Source: Olsenella sp. KGMB02461
Lineage (GTDB): Bacteria; Actinomycetota; Coriobacteriia; Coriobacteriales; Atopobiaceae
Assembly (NCBI RefSeq): GCF_012584445.1
Contig: NZ_JABAHI010000008.1
Location: forward strand, 1,426,001-1,490,000
DNA: 64,000 bases
Reading direction: 5' to 3'
In this document: positions 44,809-46,968 of the stretch, piece by piece
Position numbering within the stretch: position 1 is the stretch's first letter
Layout: every line of letters starts with the position of its first letter
Translations under genes and position numbers: made by a program
Notes under the pieces: generated by a model
What the model was told of the DNA's origin: nothing
What the model saw: only the letters and a program-made list of their open reading frames with translations
Database searches by the model: none

Positions 44809-44901
44809 GGGGTGGGGCGGCTTAAATCAGGCGATAGCAAATTGAGGCGCCTATTAGCCGGTGCACTTACTAAGTGCTTAGCCAATGCGTCCTTGGTAGG
44901 T

Positions 44902-45017
44902 GCGCCTACTAAGTACTTTTTTAGGCTTTCGCGCGGCTTGGAAAGGAAAAAAGTACTTAGTAGCCGATAAAAATGCAGGTCAAGCAGATTGCCTACTAAG
45001 CATATGTACTTAGTAGG
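44902..45017. repeat. Composite CTACTAAGTACTT repeat, left copy
   Basis: First hairpin: CCTACTAAGTACTTTTTT (44905-44922) and AAAAAAGTACTTAGTAG (44947-44963) around a loop with TCGCGCGGCT. Second: a nearly perfect palindrome at 44992-45017. The whole unit is a direct repeat of 46592-46708. A degenerate extra word lies at about 44867-44883. Confidence 0.85.
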
Positions 45018-45093
45018 TGAGAGGCGTGGTAGGTATGAGAAGCGTCAGGTATGAGAAGTGGCAGGCGCGAAGAGTGGTGGCAGTGAGGAGCGA

Positions 45094-45129
45094 CAGGCAT
45101 GGAGGAGAGCGAGCATACCTCCATGCCTG
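45094..45129 (-). terminator. Terminator of the nuclease-like gene
   Basis: Perfect 12-bp stem CAGGCATGGAGG/CCTCCATGCCTG just after the minus-strand stop at 45144. Confidence 0.6.
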
Positions 45130-45143
45130 ATGACGTAAGGGGA

Positions 45144-46154
45144 TTACCAAAAATCATGTGGGCCCAATACGGTTTGCCGGAGTTCAGCCTGTTTTGACTC
45201 CACTGGTGTCTGAAGAGGTACACCTAACTTTCGAGAGATTATCTCGGCAACGCGTTTTAAAGCGGATTCGCTATAAAGGGTCTGTGGGGTTATGGGGAGC
45301 ACTTCGATATCCATAGCCATAAGGGCGGCTATTCGCTGTCGGTCGTGAGTGTTGAGGGATTGGCTGTGGTACTCATCGCTGTCATACTCGACGTCGAGGG
45401 CGGCTTCGGGCCAGAAAAGGTCAGGTTTCACAGTCTTTTGGGCAGGCAGTAGCTGACGCGCGGATTCATTGAGCGCAATGCTAGGGTTTGCCTTGGGTTT
45501 TGGCAAGCCGTAGCCACCCAGTCGAGCGGGGCAGGTGAGCAGCAGGAGGAGTGCTGCCTCTGCGGGAGAAGCTAGGTTATTGATAAGGCAAGCGGCGGTG
45601 GACTGTGCTTTTTTCCGGCACCGCAACAGGGGGTTCATAGCTAAATAGTGCTGTATTGATTCGGCAGAGCAGAGGGGTGGGGCGCCGATAAAACCGCTGG
45701 TAAGATCCGGACGAGGCCGATACTGCCCGCATAACCAAGAGCCCAGGAGGAGCAGCTGGCTAGAGGTGAGTCTGCCGGCTGACTGGCGAAAATGCTCCAT
45801 CGGGGCAGTGAGATAGATGGCGCTTTCACAATCTTTAGGAAGAGAGGCCGGCCATAGCCGTACCAATGCTCCCGGCGGGAGGTCGGCTGTGCATACAGTT
45901 ACTGTGCAATTCTTGAGTCTGTGAGCCTTCGTTGGATCGTTCACCAGGAGGCTTGCAGTAGTGTCGCATGGACTCAGCGCCTGACGAATGTCATGGCTGT
46001 TTCTGTAGAGCCTTGATCTTTCGAGTAGGCCTATGGCCAATCTGTTTGCTTGGCTGTCGGCGAGAGCCATTCTTTGCTTCTCGGGGGTACATAGAAACTG
46101 GGATATCCCAGATATCAGGGCTAGATGAGCCGATATGCCACAAAGGATTAACAC
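45144..46154 (-). CDS. DUF559/Vsr-like PD-(D/E)XK nuclease-type protein, repeat-flanked
   Basis: A 336-residue protein. The C-terminal ~140 residues carry a Vsr/DUF559-like pattern: Glu199 (SPAEAALLLLL), Asp245 (VKPDLFW), Glu256 (LDVEYDSDEYH), an Arg pair (HDRQRIAAL) and IEVLPIT. The N-terminal ~190 residues resemble no family I can name, though such fusions recall AbiEi-like antitoxins. The GTG at 46154 follows GGAGGG; Met29 (46070) is an alternative. AT-richer than its neighbours and flanked by two composite repeats. Related endonucleases nick or cut DNA; function here is unknown. Confidence 0.6.
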   Translation of the reverse strand: MLILCGISAHLALISGISQFLCTPEKQRMALADSQANRLAIGLLERSRLYRNSHDIRQALSPCDTTASLLVNDPTKAHRLKNCTVTVCTADLPPGALVRLWPASLPKDCESAIYLTAPMEHFRQSAGRLTSSQLLLLGSWLCGQYRPRPDLTSGFIGAPPLCSAESIQHYLAMNPLLRCRKKAQSTAACLINNLASPAEAALLLLLTCPARLGGYGLPKPKANPSIALNESARQLLPAQKTVKPDLFWPEAALDVEYDSDEYHSQSLNTHDRQRIAALMAMDIEVLPITPQTLYSESALKRVAEIISRKLGVPLQTPVESKQAELRQTVLGPHDFW

Positions 46155-46591
46155 CGTACCCTCCGCCTATCAATATCAAAATAAAAATTTATCCGGAGGC
46201 TTGGCGGGCGACCGTTGCTTTTGGTAGCACTGCTTTTTGACGGCTGCCAAGGGGCGGCGTTTGCTTTCGCTGCGCTTTTGCTGCCACTTTGGCCTTGCGC
46301 CGTTTGGGGGAGAGCATTTTAGGTGTGCTGAATATCAGACATTCAACACGACAAGCTCCATGACAACGGAGCGCCCCTCCCGAGCCTCAAAACCCGGAGT
46401 TTTCATCACCAGGTTTCTCGAGCTTACTCTTTTGTGGGACATCCTTATGGGTAAAGGGGATGTCCACTATATTTCAATACCTTCATCCGTGCCTGGCCGT
46501 GGGTGCCCACATGTGCGCGGCCAAGCGATCCGGCGCGGTGGTCATCGGTGGGGCCCGCAGCCGGGGGCCACAGTTGGGTGACTCTGATCAA

Positions 46592-46708
46592 GCGCCTACT
46601 AAGCACTTTTTTGGGTCCTCGCGCGGCTCAAGAAAGAAAAAAAGTACTTAGTAGGTGATAAAATCGCAGCTCATCAGATGCGCCTACTAAGTACTTGTAC
46701 TTAGTAGG
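46592..46708. repeat. Composite CTACTAAGTACTT repeat, right copy
   Basis: First hairpin: CCTACTAAGCACTTTTTT (46595-46612) with AAAAAAGTACTTAGTAGG (ending 46655), loop again with TCGCGCGGCT. Second: a perfect palindrome of 14-bp arms around TT (46681-46710). Direct repeat of 44902-45017, 1690 bp away. Confidence 0.85.
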
Positions 46709-46968
46709 CGCTGCAGCGCTGCAGGATGCTTAGCCGGCACTTTAGGATGTTTGGCACTCTCGGCGCGATACTCAGCGGACGCGGCCAGGCGCTGCGGGTC
46801 ACTCAGCAGGGTGCTTGGCGGTAGGATGGCCGCCCGCACAGCAGCCTTTTGTCGCTTCTTGCCCTCGGCATAATGCTGTTGCCCCCCCGTTCTGGCGGAC
46901 AGCCCTGCCCGACAGAACAATCTCCGCTCGATCCAGCTCGGCGAGGGCTCCAATAGCCGGTCTAGCAA

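Follow-up and report, generated by a model that had tools for sequence, protein, structure and literature searches.

Palindromic repeat units paired with a PD-(D/E)XK nuclease family in Atopobiaceae: a candidate two-part system resembling REPIN-RAYT

The agmatine locus of Olsenella sp. KGMB02461 contains a nuclease-like gene enclosed by two copies of a palindromic repeat, which raises the question of what the gene and the repeats are to each other. Here we present an analysis of this cassette, both in the window (the whole 64,000-nucleotide stretch of DNA that was analysed) and across the nuclease family. The explanation that we propose, and judge moderately probable, is a two-part system that works like the REPIN-RAYT systems, in which an unrelated PD-(D/E)XK nuclease is paired with cognate palindromic units. 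The proposal builds on features established by sequence comparison, namely the flanking units, their dispersal, the co-diversification of gene and unit, the invariance of the catalytic residues, the purifying selection on the genes, and the existence of sites that lack the cassette or a unit.

The nuclease gene (45144-46154, minus strand, 336 aa) is enclosed by agmatine-locus genes. The preliminary description had placed a minus-strand gene between direct repeats of two stem-loops each, as is indeed found, with the difference that the units measure 118 nt (44902-45019) and 122 nt (46591-46712) rather than 116. The right unit is oriented like the left, both being read on the plus strand, and their aligned segments are 80, 86 and 89% identical. 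In each unit the two stem-loops are built from CCTACTAAGTACTT half-sites: a half-site, a loop and the reverse half-site form stem-loop 1, which is followed by a core and then by a second palindrome of the same half-site (CCTACTAAGTAC / GTACTTAGTAGG), so that the outer half-sites are inverted. The left unit has stem-loop 1 at 44903-44966 (20-nt arms, 95% complementary; inverted-repeat pair I2), the conserved core GCAGGTC, a motif enriched in flanks across the family, at 44975-44981, and stem-loop 2, a near-perfect palindrome, at 44991-45018. The corresponding parts of the right unit are stem-loop 1 at 46595-46655 (18-nt arms; pair I4), the core variant GCAGCTC at 46666-46672 and stem-loop 2, GCGCCTACTAAGTAC / GTACTTAGTAGGCGC, at 46680-46711 (pair I7). 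An isolated degenerate half-site, CTTACTAAGTGCTT, with 2 mismatches, adjoins the left unit at 44866-44879 on the plus strand.

Folded as single-stranded DNA, both units were far more stable than their dinucleotide shuffles (z -4.6 and -7.5; 0 of 200 shuffles). The similarity between upstream and downstream flanks scored 31 for the cassette and at most 15 for 27 further genes with long ORFs in the window. The insert is also AT-richer than its surroundings, as had been noted (its G+C is 53.5%, that of the window 61.1% and that of the adjacent genes 62-63%). The loop TCGCGCGGCT, described earlier as conserved, is shared by both window copies; in the sister genome one copy has TCTCGCGGCT instead, and in units that stand alone the loop is unrelated. 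It was consequently rejected as a family-wide feature. A known RNA family for the units was rejected too: no described structured RNA in Rfam matched them, and the search returned only raiA, a neighbour at the locus L132.

Searches of Pfam and NCBIfam gave no model for the window protein. Among 26 relatives, however, eight matched MTES_1575 and five DUF559, with a best E of about 1e-5 and, in the displayed case, a score below the curated cut-off; these matches are weak. The earlier reading of the gene as a nuclease is supported. The proposed PD-(D/E)XK pattern is borne out by an alignment of 26 homologues in which E199, D245, E256 and R274 are invariant, the first three being conserved acidic residues on a common fold, as in the PD-(D/E)XK superfamily. 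The full-length AF2 model has a pLDDT of 90.8, and the C-terminal domain modelled alone (about residues 186-336; 45147-45599, minus strand) has one of 92.3. A PDB fold search with the model of the window protein gave no match at E <= 0.001. Profile comparison of the C-terminal domain matched I-Bth0305I (3r3p, E 0.011) and PvuRts1I (E 0.05), and Foldseek returned the same two, weakly. From sequence and model, we read the protein as a Vsr/DUF559-like PD-(D/E)XK nuclease that carries a further domain at its N terminus. Its C-terminal domain has a weak but consistent similarity, in profile and in fold, to I-Bth0305I (Vsr-like / EDxHD homing) and to DUF559 / MTES_1575. It differs from these in its free-standing intergenic genes, with no intron or intein location seen, in having repeats of its own, and in the additional N-terminal domain, which is about 190 residues long and gave no significant match in PDB. 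Since orthologue pairs have dN/dS values of 0.08-0.31 (0.21 for the window gene and its sister-genome orthologue), the nuclease genes are under purifying selection. The suggestion of a defence function found no backing in PADLOC, which gave no usable defence-system match and only a weak one to DpdF (E 0.034) in one relative.

The nuclease family was found in 131 of 140 Atopobiaceae genomes, its hosts being gut and oral bacteria, with up to 15 copies per genome, nearly all of them divergent. The window genome (G000) has seven; the sister genome (G028) is the only other carrier of the window gene among the 140. Paralogues within a genome are at most 57% identical, with a median of about 25% (nine genomes compared, a near-identical pair in G111 being set aside as a duplicate), a divergence unlike that of an amplified insertion sequence. 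Most family copies are orthologous and conserved between the window and sister genomes. L009 / L104 (G000:C12:960180 and G028:C1:1621728), the paralogue most similar to the window gene (55% identity), carries palindromes of its own, CTACGTGAATTCACGTAG, and these lie on just one side. Phage cargo was rejected, as neither 50,697 phage records nor one degenerate-pattern scan of viral contigs yielded a family match. A plasmid search gave one weak match, on a 900-kb record of Collinsella aerofaciens (NZ_OY725717.1:290055-290777, 27% identity): a distant relative, annotated as a hypothetical protein, which takes the family beyond Atopobiaceae.

Using 116 non-redundant copies, we compared the 500 bp upstream of each gene with the 500 bp downstream. 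At a threshold score of at least 20, a repeat is shared by the two flanks of 61 of the 116 copies, compared with 0.29% of 1,382 mismatched pairs. When 500-bp segments lying 1 kb apart are paired at random, in a set that includes the cassette-holding contigs, 2.2% reach a score of 20. The remaining copies, about half, score below 20, and some of these perhaps have old or degenerate repeats. Chance palindromes were rejected by the mismatched-flank, shuffle and control-gene tests. The sequence of the repeat is specific to the gene, and the pairs are mostly direct and inverted in about a third. Many different units nevertheless follow one plan, in which inverted half-sites surround a GCAGGTAGA-like core. 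Because the core was first noticed in these same flanks, its enrichment is descriptive: CGCAGGTA stands near 23 genes, against 2.6 in shuffled sequence and 5 in far flanks; the CGCAGGTAGA(T) core is enriched near family genes across repeat families; and an inverted repeat scoring at least 10 spans 44% of GCAGGTA occurrences near family genes, against 0-18% for eight control 7-mers. A second motif common to the family flanks is GCCGAGAAGAAC.

Furthermore, gene and repeat change together. Repeated 9-mers are shared by 100% of pairs with at least 70% protein identity, by 32% at 50-70% and by 18% at 40-50%; below 40% identity the figure is about 4%, which is background. The association of 9-mer sharing with protein identity was reached by 0 of 1000 permutations. 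Since the ten protein pairs above 70% identity are mostly syntenic orthologues, the informative pairs are those at 40-75% identity whose outer flanks do not align. Motifs are shared at such non-aligning loci by, for example, L053/L056/L060/L064/L067 (AAGTGCGTAACT), and also by the groups L049/L051/L052/L057, L079/L132 and L106/L109. The compared loci, non-syntenic ones included, demonstrate that the repeat motif tracks the protein lineage.

Units also stand alone: of the roughly 14 occurrences of the window motif in its own genome, only one accompanies the gene. With up to one mismatch allowed, it is multicopy only in the window and sister genomes and occurs 0-1 times per strand in the 138 others, a restriction to carriers of the window-type gene that is based on two genomes of one genus. 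The preliminary description had expected, were its reading wrong, to find the repeat widely without the gene and the gene widely without the repeat. Taken literally, half of this is seen, in that solo repeats occur in the same genome and paralogues do without the window repeat; in its meaning it does not hold, the repeat being multicopy only in carriers of the gene and roughly half of the family's other copies having their own, different pair.

The solo copies of the window motif are either single units of about 118 bp or arrays of about 210 bp inside repeats of about 700 bp, which probably are decayed insertion sequences, to judge from their resemblance to these. The dispersed ~700-bp repeats with CTACTAAGTAC arrays (L176-L187 and L163-L174, in G000 and G028) have outer ends that vary from copy to copy and contain a short reading frame (MKKAICGVCGAKMQK...) like the start of a transposase. 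Near position 308000, in L177 (G000:C10:305800-309900), a half-site unit of 29 bp, GTACTTAGTAGGCGCATGCCGGAGGAGAT, forms tandem repeats whose number varies between copies of the array.

A different unit, of the L132 type, is dispersed in Thermophilibacter as an element of about 118 bp with 24-bp arms and a conserved interior. Among 18 such units, 9 of the 24 arm pairs have changed on both sides (0 of 500 shuffles). An inner hairpin is hinted at within this unit: from TACC to the core GGTA, four more pairs are kept, one of them with changes on both sides. G086 and G098 have a unit downstream of raiA that six relatives lack, and its half-sites differ on both arms between the two genomes. The raiA structured RNA itself (Rfam RF03072, 138 bits; L132 589-843, minus strand, in G086) adjoins both a solo unit and a gene cassette. 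In alignment A2 (L132, L259-L271), columns 69-72 with 92-95 are TACC/GGTA, with one double change in two sequences.

Under the proposed explanation, a single-copy, vertically maintained PD-(D/E)XK nuclease gene would serve a small population of cognate units of about 115-150 bp, two flanking the gene and the others standing alone in the genome. The nuclease would recognise the half-sites or their hairpins, probably when the DNA is single-stranded, and would nick or cut at the recognised units; subsequent repair or joining would copy or excise them. The sequence of the unit and the specificity of the nuclease would change together, as in REPIN-RAYT. Binding, cleavage and unit spreading by this nuclease, and not by another enzyme, are what we infer from the sequences.

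In the REPIN-RAYT systems two palindromic repeats flank the gene and the repeat type is gene-specific; the repeats are also dispersed, form hairpins of inverted pairs of about 100 bp and are abundant where the gene is present; and gene and repeat coevolve, the gene being single-copy per type and vertically inherited (PMC2817692, PMC3116915, PMC8049555). The Atopobiaceae genes resemble them in most respects, having a flanking pair of gene-specific repeats, dispersed cognate hairpin units that are abundant where the nuclease gene is present, and a coevolving nuclease gene that is single-copy per type and vertical. The differences are that the enzyme here is a PD-(D/E)XK nuclease whereas RAYT is a Y1/HUH tyrosine transposase, that the flanking units occur in both relative orientations and not always inverted, that the units have a GCAGGTAGA-like core in common, and that they number tens rather than hundreds. 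Because the enzyme is different and the window genome has no Y1_Tnp match, the system, judged by its sequences, is REPIN-RAYT-like in its working and not REPIN-RAYT itself. The earlier statements that the cassette is REPIN-like and belongs to no known transposon class hold.

Sites that lack the cassette or a unit bear on two other explanations. In the first, which we consider unlikely, unit-gene-unit jumps as a whole, the nuclease is its transposase and the solo units are MITEs. The solo units are of MITE-like size, and, as with MITEs and their parent insertion sequences, a full version that encodes an enzyme is accompanied by small, scattered non-coding units bounded by terminal inverted repeats. 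The outer half-sites of the cassette are mutually inverted, as this explanation would have it, and are so because each unit has half-sites at both ends. The L106 cassette of the sister genome is missing from the orthologous site of the window genome, where no unit is left; since 134 unrelated, unmatched bases lie there, loss is as likely as insertion. A 245-bp solo piece of the window genome is absent from the sister genome, where its flanks are contiguous; both junctions have short similarity (microhomology), and this junction, the only clean one, shows no duplication of the target. The array in this piece is also found within the IS-like ~700-bp repeats, which could have carried it. Unlike MITEs and insertion sequences, the family matches no known transposase, and the gene is not amplified: recent gene duplicates are missing from the compared genomes, paralogues are so divergent, and most copies are conserved orthologues in the two sister genomes.

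The second, homing, was raised in the preliminary description; it is a possible reading that we consider quite unlikely. Here the nuclease would cut a gene-less solo unit and repair off a unit-gene-unit copy would add the gene, turning one unit into two. The nuclease has the homing enzyme I-Bth0305I among its nearest solved relatives, and the variable outer ends of the solo pieces resemble variable conversion tracts. Moreover, as had been anticipated, empty and single-unit sites exist: besides the L106 site, the sister genome has the same flanks as the L014 cassette of the window genome with exactly one unit between them, whose stem has changed from TGCGCTGGGG/CCCCAGCGCA to TGCACTGGGG/CCCCAGTGCA. 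Such a site can be a product of recombination loss or a pre-insertion state. The sister genome, which has no L014 gene, carries about ten diverged L014-type solo units (among them those at G028:C1: 115303, 143076, 326672, 613624, 1482886, 1634973 and 1760301), apparently orphaned after gene loss, and their persistence favours loss of the gene at the single-unit site. Homing is further opposed by the survival of uncut solo units in a genome that also has the gene, by the inverted units at about a third of the repeat-bearing copies, which the model does not readily give, and by the lack of gene amplification.

A third explanation, that the protein is a host regulator whose binding sites are the units (acting as operators, terminators or chromosome sites) while insertion sequences or recombination spread them, appears very unlikely. 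It would suit the purifying selection on the gene, its vertical maintenance and the location of some arrays inside IS-like repeats; it sits poorly with units on both sides of the gene in either orientation, with invariant catalytic residues, and with a paralogue-specific half-site whose two arms change together, which is unusual for IS-spread operators. That the nuclease is a bystander and a RAYT (Y1/HUH) transposase moves the units, which would then be REPs, is extremely improbable, for all that their plan closely resembles REPINs (PMC3116915) and that Y1 proteins are present in some genomes of the same taxonomic family, since the repeat motif tracks the nuclease lineage and Y1_Tnp (PF01797) had no match in G000, G028, G087, G035 or G020 with control genomes positive, which led us to reject RAYT-driven REPs in the window genome as assembled.

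A search of the open-access literature found no precedent for the pairing of such a nuclease with repeats. HEARO/IscB and IS200/IS605 elements have a nuclease gene adjoining a structured nucleic-acid element, as here, and differ in that no HNH/RuvC or Y1 domain was seen in the present family, which has units on both sides and no Rfam match for them. The novelty thus lies in the pairing of a nuclease family with its own repeats, and would be less if the mechanism were ordinary transposition. We hold tentatively, at a little short of an even chance, the broader claim that this is a second, independent invention of the REPIN-RAYT type, in which the nuclease acts in trans and spreads its own units, with many separate recognition pairs of paralogue and unit across Atopobiaceae and perhaps other Coriobacteriales.

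Repeat populations that a domesticated enzyme maintains have their standard example in REPINs and RAYTs, and why such pairs persist is still an open question. If the proposed explanation is true, finding this anatomy with an unrelated enzyme would mean that the arrangement arose more than once, and would supply another test case. The family, whose distinct copies number up to 15 in a genome, would also offer many natural combinations of nuclease and recognition site in which to study how specificity changes, and the system would account for a set of multicopy genes without annotation, and of repeats between genes, in common bacteria associated with animals.
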